Below, one piece after another: positions 3,026-20,872 of a stretch of 33,904 bases of DNA (the stretch's first letter is position 1; the number at the start of each line of letters is the position of its first letter). This stretch comes from Candidatus Gastranaerophilales bacterium (lineage in GTDB: Bacteria > Cyanobacteriota > Vampirovibrionia > Gastranaerophilales > Gastranaerophilaceae). The notes beneath the pieces are model-generated. The model saw nothing but the letters and a program-made list of their open reading frames with translations. It was not told the origin of the DNA and did no database searches. Location of the stretch: positions 1-33,904 of the forward strand of contig CALVBY010000009.1 in assembly GCA_944325905.1 (NCBI GenBank), given 5' to 3'. The translations under genes and the position numbers were made by a program.

Positions 3026-4165
3026 ATGCAAGTTTATATCAAAAAAAGTGATCTGCAAAAAATTGACATCAACAATATTACCGTTGAATTACCTGACTTG
3101 AAGGAGATAAAAGAATCAAAATCCATAGTCATAGGCAAGTGGCTTGCTGATTGGATAAAAACAGATCTTTCAAACGGCAATATAAAAGTCAACAATTTGT
3201 TGCCATCAAAGGCTGAATTTGCATACCTTTTAGGTGTAAGTATCGGCACAATGCAAAACGCATTGAGATATCTTGAGGATTTGGGATACGTCGAATCAAA
3301 ACAATGTATCGGAACCCTTGTAAAAGGTGAAAAAGAGAGCAAGTCAACCATGCGAAAACTTACTTCAAAAAGAGAATTTGCAATTGAAGAAATCAAAAAA
3401 TATATACTCAAAACAAACATCACTCCTGGAGAAAGCCTGCCTTCATCCAGAATAATTGCAGAAAATATAAACTGCTCTGCAAACACAACAAGGATTGCGC
3501 TTGAAACAATGTGTTCTATAGGAATTCTTACACATAAGTTCAAAAATTCAAAAGAAACAGGCTGGATTTTAAACAACATAGATTTTGAAGTAAACAATAC
3601 AAACACAAATGAAACGCTTGTATCAAAAGTTAAAAATGATATTAAAGAATATATAACCAAAAATTTACGAGTAGGGGACAAAATTCCTGCTCACGCCATA
3701 CTTTCAAAAGAGTTAAAAGCCAGCATAAAGACAATCCACGACGCACTGCATGTGCTTGCTGAAGAAGGTATTTTGCTTGCCCGCAGAGGACGTTACGGAA
3801 CATCAGTAATAAAAATGCCAAACGAAATGGCAGTTGAACAAAGACGCGAAACTTCAATTTTTGCAGCGGCGCAAGACACCGCATTTTATTATTATGAAAA
3901 AACTCAAAACAATATCAAAAAAATGATTGCCGAAAATTATGCAATAGGACAAAAGCTTCCTTCAATAATGGAACTTTCAAAACAAATGGATTTGAGCCCT
4001 AATACAATTAGGAAAGCCTTTCATAACCTTGCAAAAGAGGGCTATTTAGCATTTTCAAGAGGACGCTATGGCGGAACATTTGTAATTGACGTTCCTGAAA
4101 TGGAAGAACAAGTGTTTAAGTGGCTCGCCGTAAACCCTCAATATGCGGAAAGTTATAAAAATTAG
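3026..4165 (+). CDS. Regulator with four tandem GntR-type winged-helix domains
   Basis: A 379-residue protein that appears to consist of four consecutive GntR-like winged-helix domains, near residues 33-100, 115-183, 197-264 and 288-356. Each has the family pattern: a helix, (L/I)P(S/A)-x5-7-(A/S), a recognition-helix segment such as VSIGTMQNALRYLEDLGY, SANTTRIALETMCSIGI, SIKTIHDALHVLAEEGI or SPNTIRKAFHNLAKEGY, and a wing, with RGRYGT/RGRYGG in domains 3 and 4. No ligand-binding (FCD, UTRA) or aminotransferase domain follows, unlike ordinary GntR proteins with one winged helix plus an effector domain. The ATG at 3026 is preferred because GGAAGG lies 9 bases before it; a GTG two codons earlier is too close. 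Its stop overlaps that of the convergent pilin gene. The target is unknown; autoregulation is suggested by the palindrome in its promoter. Confidence 0.85.
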   Translation: MQVYIKKSDLQKIDINNITVELPDLKEIKESKSIVIGKWLADWIKTDLSNGNIKVNNLLPSKAEFAYLLGVSIGTMQNALRYLEDLGYVESKQCIGTLVKGEKESKSTMRKLTSKREFAIEEIKKYILKTNITPGESLPSSRIIAENINCSANTTRIALETMCSIGILTHKFKNSKETGWILNNIDFEVNNTNTNETLVSKVKNDIKEYITKNLRVGDKIPAHAILSKELKASIKTIHDALHVLAEEGILLARRGRYGTSVIKMPNEMAVEQRRETSIFAAAQDTAFYYYEKTQNNIKKMIAENYAIGQKLPSIMELSKQMDLSPNTIRKAFHNLAKEGYLAFSRGRYGGTFVIDVPEMEEQVFKWLAVNPQYAESYKN

Positions 4166-4938
4166 GGAAGGCATTCCCAGTAACTTTTTGTTTCGTCATC
4201 AGGACAAACATCATTCAATGCATACCAAGAACAGCCTATTCCATTACCTTTTTGATTTGATTTTTTTGAACAAGGATAACCCTTTTGTTCAGCAGTAGCT
4301 AAACAAACTGACGAAGCTGTATTTTCAGGATTTTGCGCATTGCATAATGTTTTTTGCTCCTCTATATAATCATCATCATAAGTGCCAGTCTGCTTTATAG
4401 GCTCTAAATAATTTTTATTTTTTGCAACATGAAAGACAAAAATATCGTGTCCCAAGGCGTTTGGACCACTTGATGCCCCATTTATATCAATAGTCACCCC
4501 TAATTTGCTGGAATTTACACGAAATTTGTAACACACTCCATTTGAAAGTAACCTATCAGGATAAACATGTCCTCCTATGTCTACATAAGCTTCCTTTGAT
4601 AAACTGTAATTTCTATTTTTACCCTTATACTCACATTTACCAACCATTTTCAGATAATTATCAAATATATTGTAACATTCTTCTTTGTTCACATATGCAT
4701 TCAGATTAACGTCTAACTTGGAACAATATGTACCTAAATTAATACCATAATCATTTTGTGCAAACTCTAATTGCTGAGAAAAAAGAGAATATGCTTTTAC
4801 AAATTGTGTTTTTAAGACTTTTGCCTGATATTTATGGACAAGTGTAGGAATTGTCATTGCGGCGACTATCCCAACTATCGCCAAGGTTATCAAAACTTCT
4901 GCTAAAGTAAAACCTTTTTTTAAACTATAATTCTTCAC
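4162..4938 (-). CDS. Type IV pilin-like (pseudopilin) protein, copy 1
   Basis: A 258-residue protein with a class III (prepilin) signal: MKNYSLKKG followed by FTLAEVLITLAIVGIVAA. Prepilin peptidase would cut after Gly9, and Glu at +5 of the mature protein is present. The hydrophobic helix is followed by a Cys-containing globular domain and the C-terminus GCSWYALNDVCPDDE...CLP. Its start and end are very close to copy 3 at 20001-20774, so they are paralogues. As written the start codon is GTG (4938), with no Shine-Dalgarno but a promoter -10 ending 6 bases before it. The frame also stays open upstream to a G9 tract, so a form with about 33 extra residues is possible by frameshift or tract-length change. 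It is located after the HicB-like gene, and its last 4 bases overlap the convergent regulator gene. Role probably surface pilus or pseudopilus; the partner system is not in the window. Confidence 0.9.
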   Translation of the reverse strand: MKNYSLKKGFTLAEVLITLAIVGIVAAMTIPTLVHKYQAKVLKTQFVKAYSLFSQQLEFAQNDYGINLGTYCSKLDVNLNAYVNKEECYNIFDNYLKMVGKCEYKGKNRNYSLSKEAYVDIGGHVYPDRLLSNGVCYKFRVNSSKLGVTIDINGASSGPNALGHDIFVFHVAKNKNYLEPIKQTGTYDDDYIEEQKTLCNAQNPENTASSVCLATAEQKGYPCSKKSNQKGNGIGCSWYALNDVCPDDETKSYWECLP

Positions 4939-4991: not shown

Positions 4992-5036
4992 CTAGGAGAG
5001 TTGCCCCCCCCCGTTATGTTTATTGAAATATTTCAT
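4992..5036 (-). CDS. Leader mini-ORF with G9 tract upstream of pilin copy 1
   Basis: AAGGAGG (5050-5044), 7 bases, then ATG and the 14-codon ORF MKYFNKHNGGGQLS, ended by TAG. The three Gly codons are one run of nine G. A promoter (5057-5085) precedes it. A shift of -1 (or one added G) inside the run moves ribosomes into a frame with no stop that joins the pilin after 22 more codons. It could be a regulatory leader peptide, the true 5' end of a phase-variable pilin, or a frameshift site. The related leader at 20828-20872 encodes nearly the same peptide. Confidence 0.6.
   Translation of the reverse strand: MKYFNKHNGGGQLS
5004..5012. repeat. Homopolymer (C)9 / (G)9 tract, locus 1
   Basis: Nine consecutive C on the plus strand, inside the leader ORF of pilin copy 1. 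In this AT-rich sequence the only three such tracts are at the three complete pilin loci, all with nine residues. Such tracts are classic slipped-strand mispairing sites. Confidence 0.95.
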
Positions 5037-12138: not shown

Positions 12139-12527
12139 TTAATTAAAACACTCATCGTACATCTGCTGGAAGGTTTGACCCCCTTTTTCAGTAGCATAAA
12201 CAACAGAACGTAATTTTTGAATCCCATTACTCGAATTGCCAGCTAACTCAAAAGAAAATATATCATAACCCCATTTGTTAGGACCTTTAAAACCGTTTAT
12301 ATCTACCGTAAATATTGGTGAACCCGATAACACGTCATGATATTTTATAATATAAGGTCCCGTCGTATAAGACAAACACAGGATAATTATTTTTTGGGCA
12401 TCTGAAAAATTACTATTAGGATCATATTCTTCTTCAGGATTCTGCTCTAACTTAACCAAATTAGAACCACGGAAATTTTTCGGAAGAAAACCTTGTTCAT
12501 ATGCATTATTTTCACATATTTTTATTT
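12139..12527 (-). pseudogene. Remnant of a pilin-like gene (C-terminal part only)
   Basis: An open frame without a good start codon encodes the C-terminal region of a pilin-like protein. The stretch FTVDINGFKGPNKWGYDIFS matches the conserved ITIDINGASSGPNALGHDIF segment of pilin copy 1 and its counterpart in copy 3. The frame can be read back to the end of yidD (around KICENNAYEQGFL), but no FTLAEV N-terminus, hydrophobic helix or Shine-Dalgarno precedes it. I read it as a decayed copy that lost its 5' half. Translation from TTG at 12459 would give about 106 residues without any export signal, so function is unlikely. Confidence 0.65.
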
Positions 12528-12769: not shown

Positions 12770-13483
12770 TTAATCAACCTTGCGAGGATAATTATCAGGA
12801 ATTTTCCAGCCATTCATCGCTATCAAAGCTGTGCAGTATTTACCGTTATTACCTGGCTTACAATTATCTTGCATTTTTGAAATACTACCCATCCATGCAT
12901 ACTTATATGGTACTATACCCTTGCCCCTTAAATCAGCCCAATAATCATCTTCCGGGTCAGATTGTTCAATAGTCCCTGGCAAATAGTTAAAATAAAAAAC
13001 ACAACAACCCGCAGCATCATCTATTGAAACATGTTTCTTTAGGCATTTTGCAGGATCTTCTGTATATAAAATCCAATCTCGCGTTGTATGAGAGGCAAAA
13101 CTTAATGCAGTACCATCCATAAAATAAAATATAGGGGTACCTGTTTCATCAACCTCTACTTTTTGAATTTTTAAATATTTAGCAAAATATTTTTCAAACC
13201 ATATACGTTGCTTTGATGAACCTTCTATAGGATTTCCGTTATTATCAAGAATAGGTCCCGATGTATCAGAGAACCATAGGTTATCATTTCCAAATTCTGC
13301 TTCTGCAAATTTGTGTGCCTCATTTATCGTTGTATAAAACTTTTTCAATTTTGTTTCGACATCACGATTACTAACATTTTGAATTAAAGTTGGAATTGTT
13401 AATGCAGCAACTACACCTATGATACCTAAGGTTATTAATACTTCCGATAATGTAAAACCTTTTATTGATTTATAATTCATCAT
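12770..13483 (-). CDS. Type IV pilin-like (pseudopilin) protein, copy 2
   Basis: A 237-residue protein with the prepilin signal MMNYKSIKG then FTLSEVLITLGIIGVVAALTIPTL. Prepilin peptidase would cut after the Gly, with Glu at +5. The globular part differs from copies 1 and 3: Cys-Cys in DDAAGCCVFYFNYLPG, and a C-terminal CTALIAMNGWKIPDNYP segment seen in many pilin-like proteins of gut Melainabacteria. The ATG at 13483 lies 6 bases after a perfect TATAAT with no Shine-Dalgarno. As at the other two loci, the frame extends upstream without a stop to a G9 tract and could be fused to a leader ORF. It follows flhA and precedes yidD. Confidence 0.9.
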   Translation of the reverse strand: MMNYKSIKGFTLSEVLITLGIIGVVAALTIPTLIQNVSNRDVETKLKKFYTTINEAHKFAEAEFGNDNLWFSDTSGPILDNNGNPIEGSSKQRIWFEKYFAKYLKIQKVEVDETGTPIFYFMDGTALSFASHTTRDWILYTEDPAKCLKKHVSIDDAAGCCVFYFNYLPGTIEQSDPEDDYWADLRGKGIVPYKYAWMGSISKMQDNCKPGNNGKYCTALIAMNGWKIPDNYPRKVD

Positions 13484-13489
13484 ATTTGA

Positions 13490-13518
13490 ATTATAAATTT
13501 TGTTAGCTATACTGCCTA
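13490..13518 (-). promoter_or_regulatory. Promoter for pilin copy 2, leaderless arrangement
   Basis: Minus-strand TAGGCA (13518-13513), 17-base spacer, TATAAT (13495-13490), then exactly 6 bases to ATG. The distance from the G9 tract to the -35 is 30 bases, the same as at the other two loci. Confidence 0.55.
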
Positions 13519-13536
13519 ATTCCTTACTATATCTAC

Positions 13537-13578
13537 TTAGATGGGATGCCCCCCCCCGTTCCTCGTCATGACAAACAT
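13537..13578 (-). CDS. Leader mini-ORF with G9 tract upstream of pilin copy 2
   Basis: The flhA stop codon is followed by 13 bases containing a strong GAGGAGGT Shine-Dalgarno and then ATG. The 13-codon ORF encodes MFVMTRNGGGHPI and stops with TAA. The nine G encode the three Gly, as at loci 1 and 3, although the rest of the peptide differs. One added G or a -1 slip leads into a stop-free frame fused to the pilin. It has one codon fewer before the tract than loci 1 and 3, which fits selection on a reading frame. Confidence 0.55.
   Translation of the reverse strand: MFVMTRNGGGHPI
13549..13557. repeat. Homopolymer (C)9 / (G)9 tract, locus 2
   Basis: Nine C on the plus strand inside the leader ORF after flhA; same length as the tracts at 5004-5012 and 20840-20848. 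Confidence 0.95.
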
Positions 13579-13591
13579 ATTACCTCCTCTT

Positions 13592-15685
13592 TTATTCCAT
13601 AGCATAAGATTCTCCAATAGTATCTATTGCTTCAACTTTAATATCTGTTATCAATTCAGAATAGGATATTACAACAATTGTCGGTATATGACGTTCGAGC
13701 AACTGATACAAAGGCAACCTAATTCTTGGAGAACATAATATCACGGGTTGTTTCCCGCAGGTTTGATGTGCTCTCATCAGTGTTGTTGCAGCAGTTTCAA
13801 TTAACTCTTGCACCTGCATAGGATTTAAAAGAAACATTGTGCCAAGCTCAGTTCTTTGACAACTATCATCAAGAATCTTTTCCCACTCAGGAGATAACGT
13901 CAGAGCATATAAAACTCTGTCATCTTGTACATTGGATAAACAAATTTGACGTCCCAAAGCTGCTCTCAAACGTTCTGACAAAATATCAGGTTCCTTTGAA
14001 AATCTTGCATAGTCACACAGTCTTTCAAAGACGAATATTATATCTTTTATAGAAACTTTTTCACGAATTAAGTTAACAAAAATCTTTCTCAAGTCACTTG
14101 TTGAAATAATTGTAGGGACAAGGTCATTTACAAGGGTTGGGTCTTGAGATCTTACAAGCTCCATAAGCTTTAATACATCTGTTTTTGTCATAACATCATC
14201 AACGTGTTTTCTTACACACTCTTGCAAGTGCGTAACAATTACATCAGTTGAATCAACAGCCGTAACTGATCTTGCTGATTTTGCATCTTCAGCGGTAATC
14301 CAGTACGCCTGAGTCTGATATGTCGGATCAATACCTATAATTGCATCTTCCGGAACTTCTTTTCGCATAGAATCCCATTGATCTGCAATTACCATCAATC
14401 TTCCCGGATAAACATATCCAGTTGCAACAGTGTTACCACGAATAGATATCATGTACTCATTTGCATCTAAAGCAGATGAATCCATGATTCTTATGTTCGG
14501 AATAATATAACCTAACTCATCCGTGACTCTTTGACGCAAAGCCGCAATCTTGGCAAGTAACTGACCTTCTTGATCAGGGTCTGCGATTACAAGAAGATTT
14601 GAGCCAACCTGCAAACTCAATACGTCTACACCAAGACGCTCATACATCCTATTTGGGTTAACCAAATCTTGCATATTTTGACGAACATTTTCCAACTGAC
14701 CTAATTGTGATTGAACATCCGCATTAATCAAAACTGAAAATCCTGCTATACCTATACCTATTGAAAACATCAAAAACGGAAACCAGGGTAAACCGGTAAT
14801 AGGACCTGTTACAGCTAAAAGCATCAAAAATCCAGATGCAAAAAATAATGAATAAGGCTTGCTTAAAATTTGCCCCGCAACATCAGCACCTAGTGAAGAA
14901 CTTGCCGCAGAAGATCTTGTCATGAAAACACCGGCTGCAATTGACATCAACAAAGATGGAACTTGTGATGCCAATCCATCACCAATTGTTAAAATGGTAT
15001 ATTTAGCAATAGCATCTTCAATAGACATCTGATTCATCAAACATCCGACACACAAACCGCCCACGATGTTTATAATTACAATGATAATACCAGCAATGGT
15101 ATCACCTTTTACAAACTTCATAGCACCATCCATAGAACCGAAAAGATTTGATTCTCTTTGCAAATCCTCACGTTTTTTGGTTGCTTCCTCAGGCGATATT
15201 AAACCGGCATTAAAGTCCGCGTCAATTGTCATTTGTTTACCCGGCATAGCATCTAACGCAAACCTTGCAGCAACTTCGGCGATACGTTCAGCACCTTTTG
15301 TGATAACCATAAACTGTACAACCGTGATAATTAAGAAGATTACACCGCCGACAACCATGTTACCACCGGTTACGAATGTTCCAAACGCTTCAATAACTTC
15401 TCCGGCCTCACCTTTTGCAAGAATTAACCTCGTTGATGCAATTGAAAGAACAAGCCTAAACATTGTACCTAACAATATAATTGACGGAAATGCTGCCAAT
15501 TCAAGAGTCTTTTGCACATACAAGGCAATCATCAAAAGTACTATACCAAGAGTTATATTTAAGCTTATGGAAAAATTTATTACCCAAGTCGGCATTTCAA
15601 CAAGCAAAATTAACAGTAACGTTAATACGAAAACTGCTAAGAAAATTTCACTTATAGGATTGCTACCTGAATTACCCTGTGCCAT
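13592..15685 (-). CDS. flhA: Flagellar-type export gate protein FlhA (FHIPEP family)
   Basis: The 697-residue FlhA/SctV homologue forms the nonameric export gate of flagellar and type III secretion systems. The N-terminal half holds about eight membrane segments starting near residue 13, with the family signature RLVLSIASTRLIL and the FHIPEP-region cytoplasmic loop 'ERIAEVAARFALDAMPGKQM'. The C-terminal cytosolic domain (about 345-697) binds substrates and chaperones. It overlaps fliH by one base (TAATG). The neighbours FliE, FliF and FliH support a flagellar-lineage apparatus; whether it builds a flagellum or only a secretion device is not known from this window. A pilin leader ORF begins 13 bases after its stop. 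Confidence 0.95.
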   Translation of the reverse strand: MAQGNSGSNPISEIFLAVFVLTLLLILLVEMPTWVINFSISLNITLGIVLLMIALYVQKTLELAAFPSIILLGTMFRLVLSIASTRLILAKGEAGEVIEAFGTFVTGGNMVVGGVIFLIITVVQFMVITKGAERIAEVAARFALDAMPGKQMTIDADFNAGLISPEEATKKREDLQRESNLFGSMDGAMKFVKGDTIAGIIIVIINIVGGLCVGCLMNQMSIEDAIAKYTILTIGDGLASQVPSLLMSIAAGVFMTRSSAASSSLGADVAGQILSKPYSLFFASGFLMLLAVTGPITGLPWFPFLMFSIGIGIAGFSVLINADVQSQLGQLENVRQNMQDLVNPNRMYERLGVDVLSLQVGSNLLVIADPDQEGQLLAKIAALRQRVTDELGYIIPNIRIMDSSALDANEYMISIRGNTVATGYVYPGRLMVIADQWDSMRKEVPEDAIIGIDPTYQTQAYWITAEDAKSARSVTAVDSTDVIVTHLQECVRKHVDDVMTKTDVLKLMELVRSQDPTLVNDLVPTIISTSDLRKIFVNLIREKVSIKDIIFVFERLCDYARFSKEPDILSERLRAALGRQICLSNVQDDRVLYALTLSPEWEKILDDSCQRTELGTMFLLNPMQVQELIETAATTLMRAHQTCGKQPVILCSPRIRLPLYQLLERHIPTIVVISYSELITDIKVEAIDTIGESYAME

Positions 15686-20000: not shown

Positions 20001-20774
20001 TTACTTAGGCAAACAATCCCAATAACCTTTTGTCTCGTCATCAGGACAAACATCATTTAATGCATACCAAGAACATCCAAGTCCATTCCCTTTTTGTGAT
20101 GAGTTTTTAGTACATGGACGACCATTTTGTTCATTTCCTGCTATACAACTGTTTGAACTTGGGATTGAAGTATTACCTTCACAATTTTCCATCGCACTGG
20201 CAAGTTCTTCCTCAGTATAGTATCCCGTCATTTTTATGGGCTCTAAATAATCTTTATCATTAACCCAAAACGAAAATATATCATGCCCTAAAGCATTTGG
20301 GCCTTTATCCGGACCGTTCATATCAAATGAAAATCCTAATCTACCGGAATTTATAGTTGTGTGGTAACAAGTACCGTCTGAAAGTAAATATTTTGGTTTC
20401 GCAGTACCACCTACATCAATGTAAGCTTCTTTTTTCAAATCATAGGTCCGCGGCTTGTTTTTATATTCACATTCTCCTACAACTTTAAAATATTTGTTAA
20501 AAATCGCCAAGCATTCATCTTTATGCTTAAATTTGGCATTGTCGTAATCCCATTCAACACAATACTTTCTAAAATTTACATCATATTCATTTCGTGCATA
20601 CAATAGTTGTTGTTGAAGCAATGCATATTTATTGATAAGCTGATTTTTTAGCACTTTTTTTTGATAATTCAATACCAAAGTCGGAATTGTCATTGCGGCA
20701 ACTATCCCAACTATCGCCAAGGTTATCAATACTTCTGCTAATGTAAAACCGTTTTTATAACTATAATTCTTCAT
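20001..20774 (-). CDS. Type IV pilin-like (pseudopilin) protein, copy 3
   Basis: A 257-residue paralogue of copy 1 with prepilin signal MKNYSYKNG then FTLAEVLITLAIVGIVAA, the same 'GPNALGHDIFxF' centre and the same GCSWYALNDVCPDDE...CLP end. The ATG at 20774 lies 6 bases after a consensus TTGACA-N17-TATAAT promoter and lacks a Shine-Dalgarno. The frame is open upstream to a G9 tract, as at the other two loci, and could add 33 residues. It follows the dCMP deaminase gene with no gap except the leader unit. Copies 1 and 3 differ mainly in the middle, which suggests gene conversion or recent duplication with divergence of the exposed part. Confidence 0.9.
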   Translation of the reverse strand: MKNYSYKNGFTLAEVLITLAIVGIVAAMTIPTLVLNYQKKVLKNQLINKYALLQQQLLYARNEYDVNFRKYCVEWDYDNAKFKHKDECLAIFNKYFKVVGECEYKNKPRTYDLKKEAYIDVGGTAKPKYLLSDGTCYHTTINSGRLGFSFDMNGPDKGPNALGHDIFSFWVNDKDYLEPIKMTGYYTEEELASAMENCEGNTSIPSSNSCIAGNEQNGRPCTKNSSQKGNGLGCSWYALNDVCPDDETKGYWDCLPK

Positions 20775-20827: not shown

Positions 20828-20872
20828 CTAGGAGAGTTGCCCCCCCCCGTTATGTTCATCGAAATATTTCAT
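20828..20872 (-). CDS. Leader mini-ORF with G9 tract upstream of pilin copy 3
   Basis: The dCMP deaminase stop codon overlaps the AAGGAGG Shine-Dalgarno, and ATG follows 12 bases after the stop. The 14-codon ORF encodes MKYFDEHNGGGQLS, nearly identical to the locus 1 leader, with the Gly codons formed by nine G. The alternative frame after the tract is open into the pilin. The tight coupling to the upstream stop suggests the leader is translated as part of the deaminase operon. Confidence 0.6.
   Translation of the reverse strand: MKYFDEHNGGGQLS
20840..20848. repeat. Homopolymer (C)9 / (G)9 tract, locus 3
   Basis: Nine C on the plus strand in the leader ORF; part of a longer near-identical DNA segment shared by locus 1 (about 4985-5050) and locus 3 (about 20822-20887). 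Confidence 0.95.

Follow-up and report, generated by a model that had tools for sequence, protein, structure and literature searches.

The opa-type genes of Neisseria form a dispersed family encoding surface proteins whose expression varies independently from gene to gene. About 11 dispersed opa genes have been described as being under phase variation (PMC3745409). In the poly-G/C loci of Campylobacter (PMC6321876) and Neisseria (PMC5320596) a homopolymer is located in the 5' part of a gene for a surface structure and its frame sets the gene ON or OFF; among the phase-variable tracts of Campylobacter 53% are G9 and 26% are G10 (PMC6321876). In pil1 of Streptococcus gallolyticus (PMC3894217), which appears to be the closest leader-peptide precedent for pili, a repeat within a short leader ORF precedes pilus genes and its frame alters translation of the leader. 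The kind of mechanism considered here is already known. The locus described below shares with the Campylobacter and Neisseria loci the 5' homopolymer, the surface-structure gene and a frame that would set ON or OFF, and its peak of tract lengths at G9/G10 is like that of the Campylobacter tracts. It differs from both in that the genes are paralogs, present in dozens of copies, that encode type IV pilins in a non-photosynthetic relative of the cyanobacteria, that mismatch repair is present and the rest state is fixed one insertion from ON, and that a promoter-like element lies within the extension predicted to be switched. With the opa-type families it would share dispersed, independently varying surface proteins, whereas the repeat unit and the protein class differ. 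The pil1 system has GCAGA repeats and relies on a transcription terminator; a search of the present locus from tract to pilin gave no terminator, and in the ON frame leader and pilin form one continuous ORF. In the literature searched, with most subscription journals outside its scope, we came upon no account of phase variation for gut Gastranaerophilales.

The locus is located in a stretch of 33,904 nucleotides (the window, meaning the whole stretch that was analysed) from a Candidatus Gastranaerophilales genome of 1.60 Mb in 92 contigs. Reading of the sequence placed the flhA stop codon at 13594-13592 on the minus strand, followed by 13 bases and the ATG of a leader ORF at 13578-13576. The codons ATG TTT GTC ATG ACG AGG AAC, nine Gs and CAT CCC ATC TAA form a mini-ORF encoding MFVMTRNGGGHPI. 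The parts of the locus, and the two other copies in the window, are as follows.

13582..13589, minus strand: Shine-Dalgarno-like GAGGAGGT of the leader ORF, within the 13 bases 3' of the flhA stop (sequence)
13558..13578, minus strand: leader MFVMTRN, 7 codons 5' of the tract (sequence)
13549..13557, minus strand: G9 tract, predicted OFF at 9 and ON at 10 or 7 (sequence and frame reading)
13533..13539, minus strand: TAAGTAG, closing the leader frame by TAA and the third frame by TAG (sequence)
13484..13548, minus strand: in-frame extension between tract and internal ATG, open in the pilin frame and in no other
13490..13518, minus strand: promoter-like TAGGCA-17-TATAAT, six bases 5' of the internal ATG
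13468..13498, minus strand: inverted repeat that covers the -10 and the internal ATG, with 11-nt arms around a 9-nt spacer
12770..13483, minus strand: pilin ORF (N_methyl motif, DUF6613), read from the internal ATG; in the ON form it would start at 13578
5004..5036, minus strand: second window copy, leader MKYFNKHN and G9, with its pilin at 4162-4938
20840..20872, minus strand: third window copy, leader MKYFDEHN and G9, with its pilin at 20001-20774

Each detail that an earlier sequence-only reading had given for the region after flhA (Shine-Dalgarno sequence, ATG, mini-ORF across nine Gs, stop) was confirmed, as was its observation that the pilin can be entered only from the frame one base away. 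From the upstream ATG the pilin frame needs one G more (G10) or G7. The pilin carries the prepilin N-terminal methylation motif and its body is DUF6613; a structure model was weak (pLDDT 53.8) and contained only a long N-terminal helix (12-64). A prepilin peptidase is encoded in the genome (PF01478 above cut-off). Just downstream of the focal pilin, at 12142-12525 on the minus strand, there is a fragment that matches a different pilin over its C-terminal half, at 66% identity to the pilin of L042; it is a remnant of a replaced or broken pilin paralog. Most relatives have a yidD-like ORF 3' of flhA (L243-L258); in G000 and G007 the pilin element follows flhA directly and that ORF is missing. 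The G007 ortholog of the focal locus also has G9, but its leader is MIKTHN.

We consider it likely that the focal locus is a translational phase-variation (contingency) locus. The upstream ATG would be the regulated start of the pilin, with ribosomes passing through the G tract. At G9 they would meet the TAA and release a peptide of 13 residues (OFF). A tract of G10 or G7 would let them continue across the extension into the prepilin (ON), from which prepilin peptidase would remove leader and extension at G^F. Slippage of the tract at replication would flip each locus independently within a strain, which would give a population of cells with differing pilin sets and, as its presumed benefit, surface variation. 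With the usual tract one insertion short of ON, most loci would rest OFF. With MutS and MutL present in 16/16 genomes of the genus, the tracts may slip at only modest rates, a point against phase variation; the idea that they exist because mismatch repair was lost was rejected on the same grounds.

The focal element had been taken as a second copy, and the genome proved to hold about two dozen. Six G8 windows were observed in the whole stretch where 0.12 were expected, which excludes a chance origin of its G-runs. Genome-wide there were 24 runs of at least eight Gs, all of them G9 or G10 and none of exactly eight, and nearly all were located in leaders upstream of an ORF for an FTLAEV pilin. 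This confinement of G9/G10 tracts to pilin leaders counts for phase variation. Variants of the architecture included C9 in place of G9 with another leader (L033, L038, L041, L047) and a G10 within a different ORF adjoining a pilin (L049). Four conventional pilins that lack a tract (L114, L116, L120, L121), used as a contrast set, have in-frame upstream stops and a normal Shine-Dalgarno sequence, and in a single case (L113) the inner promoter is kept with an in-frame stop and no tract. An HPELVSGS-type dispersed repeat was seen inserted in frame in the extension or leader part of two pilin genes (L048 and L123; G000:C44 and C26).

Within the genus we read 92 elements from 11 genomes, and the leader start could be set in 82. 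Loci outside the source genome were picked by an extension profile, which favours intact ones; the source genome's own set, picked by the G-run alone, behaved like the profile-picked loci. The 82 tracts comprised 67 G9, 4 C9, 8 G10, 2 G8 and 1 G11 (L048, whose true tract is G10, was scored shorter in this tally, its ON state being unaffected), and nine-long tracts made up 71 of them. Leader length was a multiple of three in 71/82. The frame was one base short of ON in 67 loci, ON in 11 and in the third frame in 4; the loci are related, so P values for this frame bias overstate independence, and the closed off-frames likewise come from related sequences. All elements kept the pilin frame open, over extensions of 26 to 251 nt; the off-frame table was filtered for open frames, and the unfiltered element listing gave the same open-frame result. 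Changes of distance that were not a multiple of three were usually offset by the tract or the leader (L104, L107 and the C9 class). Of 90 extensions, 84% had stops in both off-frames by the seventh codon, compared with 28% after synonymous recoding with pilin codon usage. In every element the off-frames were stopped. The stop motif varied between TAAGTAG and TAGCTAA, with both of its stops retained. Similar results were obtained in another genus (G037), where the usual tract is G10: extensions of ten lengths from 25 to 247 nt kept one phase, all were open, and 15/18 loci were one base short of ON. The relation was not the same in all members, since three states occurred, even among near-identical paralogs; the ON loci L035, L039 and L108 have AACA-G9 where others have AAC-G9.

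With one genome per species, tract lengths were compared between species and between paralogs. Orthologs sharing both the upstream flank and the pilin carried G9, G11, G10 (ON) and G9 in one set (L031, L067, L092, L078), G10 (ON) and G9 in another (L036; L058 and L079), and G9 and G8 in a third (L034, L057). In a genome of another genus (G072), near-identical leaders were joined to G12, G9 and G11, or to G12 and G10, so that ON and both OFF frames were represented. Tract length is therefore not unchanged at nine, as had been proposed, since orthologs carry G8, G10 and G11. The near-uniform G9 of the genus nevertheless counts against phase variation.

The tract was followed by a -35-like hexamer at 30 bases in all three window loci, as noted before; in relatives this spacing turned out not to be fixed, being 30 in 62/87 promoter-bearing elements and 27-164 in the others. 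In 87/92 elements the extension contains -35 and -10 hexamers exactly 17 bp apart, with a perfect TATAAT in 82 and an ATG six bases 3' of the -10 in 75; the -35 hexamer is TTGACA in most paralogs, compared with TAGGCA at the focal locus. The pattern was present in 16/16 genus genomes and almost never in reverse orientation. The inverted repeat, which reaches across the -10 and the start codon, has 11-bp arms; at its 9-nt spacer the mean is 9.5 pairs, against 2.7-5.0 at other spacers, and an outer pair was altered on both sides, being C-G in 59 and T-A in 15. In one genome (G012) TTGACA-17-TATAAT-GTACGT-ATG was seen dozens of times, often near contig ends, and these repeats appear to represent a large family with a leaderless-type promoter.

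Coding constraint in the extension, which the sequence-only reading had proposed to look for in substitution patterns, was not supported: among 60 distinct 89-nt extensions the pilin frame gave a pN/pS of 0.73, and one other frame gave 0.74. As judged from these patterns, the extension seems to keep an open frame and nucleotide motifs, with no constraint on the peptide, and such amino-acid freedom would be expected for a leader removed by prepilin peptidase. The view of a frame relation under selection, and not a relic of recent duplication, was upheld, as leaders differ while leader lengths and the frame relation are kept; recent duplication as the sole cause was ruled out because leaders differ both between loci and between orthologs. 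Taken together, the earlier interpretation was partly supported. Leaders of G000 and G007 orthologs had a mean similarity of about 0.49, against 0.48 for shuffled sequence, while flhA fourfold sites were 65% identical and upstream flanks 76-94%; leader and flank measures were computed differently (gapped and ungapped), so this near-random similarity despite conserved flanks (for example 13558-13578 in the window, and L053) makes leader hypervariability a lead and no proof.

We weighed several other explanations of these data. The inner promoter with its leaderless ATG may be the real start, leaving the leader and the tract as a minor regulatory layer or a relic. The predicted promoter, if active, would make pilin at any tract length, and that it could do so counts against phase variation. 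The regular promoter and ATG positions described above favour this explanation, as do the inverted repeat and the choice of GAC in 78/80 Asp codons at the -35, compared with 17% GAC in pilin bodies. However, the five elements that have no promoter, and eleven promoter-bearing ones with neither ATG nor GTG at the expected position, are still open from the tract, and the shortest of the G037 extensions, down to 25 nt, cannot accommodate a promoter. Given how strictly the frame is kept, the upstream start should matter regardless of the inner promoter, and we regard an exclusive inner start as unlikely. A joint arrangement is somewhat more plausible, though still tentative: a switch with two inputs, in which the same DNA gives a phase-gated upstream product and a phase-independent, perhaps repressible, leaderless product, the ON frame sharing its bases with a near-consensus promoter and with the inverted repeat at the start codon. 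Slightly less probable than an inner start alone, and thus also unlikely, is programmed slippage, in which G9 would be a fixed recoding site where the ribosome (-1) or RNA polymerase slips and pilin is made at a constant low level. Intact mismatch repair, the predominance of nine-long tracts and of the one-base relation, and the preservation of the latter by compensation would all agree with it; the variation of tract length among orthologs and near-identical paralogs over three frames, the existence of plain in-frame ON loci and the closure of both off-frames, beyond the zero frame alone, would not.

Two further mechanisms have, in our judgement, very little probability. In attenuation as in pil1, tract length would set how far the ribosome reaches and a hairpin would block transcription. 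The repeat in a leader ORF upstream of the pilin and the hairpin between leader and pilin resemble such a system, but our search for intrinsic terminators in the interval from tract to pilin found none, on which ground the attenuator reading was rejected; the hairpin is AT-rich with no T run, and the ON frame continues into the pilin, a feature that attenuation does not need. The tract could also serve as a joint for recombination, with leaders staying in place while pilin cassettes are swapped, and we hold this to be similarly improbable. L035 and L044 are alike downstream of the tract and unlike upstream, L044 and L062 are alike upstream and have different pilins, and the focal gene has a piece of a different pilin on its downstream side. 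Between two species, the pilins of L042 (G000) and L074 (G015) are 99.6% identical from the inner TATAAT onward and about 90% identical upstream, which points to a recent exchange of the pilin body or to an assembly artefact. That shift in identity is at the -10, away from the tract, short-read assembly chimeras are possible, and exchange leaves the multiple-of-three leaders, the closed off-frames and the differences in tract length unexplained. Translational phase variation remains our preferred explanation.

The Shine-Dalgarno-ATG-leader-G9 pattern was found in 45/117 genomes of the family and in 19/41 sampled genera, and the reversed pattern was nearly absent. Other families of the class had at most one forward match per genome and almost none overall; by these pattern counts, the architecture appears to be confined essentially to one family. 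Most relatives in public records are 'Candidatus Gastranaerophilales' MAGs, and some sample names suggest chickens. A viral origin was rejected, the pattern having no match in viral contigs. The longest G run elsewhere in the family was G18 (L313), and in other genera of the family runs of G9-G13 were seen in or before genes for repeat-rich, secreted-looking proteins (L273, L276, L286), and genes other than those for pilins may therefore be switchable as well.

In this gut bacterium and its relatives, dozens of pilin genes have this arrangement, every one with a separate G-run. Two genera that differ in their usual tract (G9 and G10) share the rest state one insertion from ON, which suggests that the resting state of a contingency locus is under selection. 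If phase variation is true of these loci, independently switchable pilins throughout the family would make it a strongly phase-variable group. Pilin states are then predicted to be readable from existing metagenome reads by counting Gs, and selection on pili would thereby be testable without culture.
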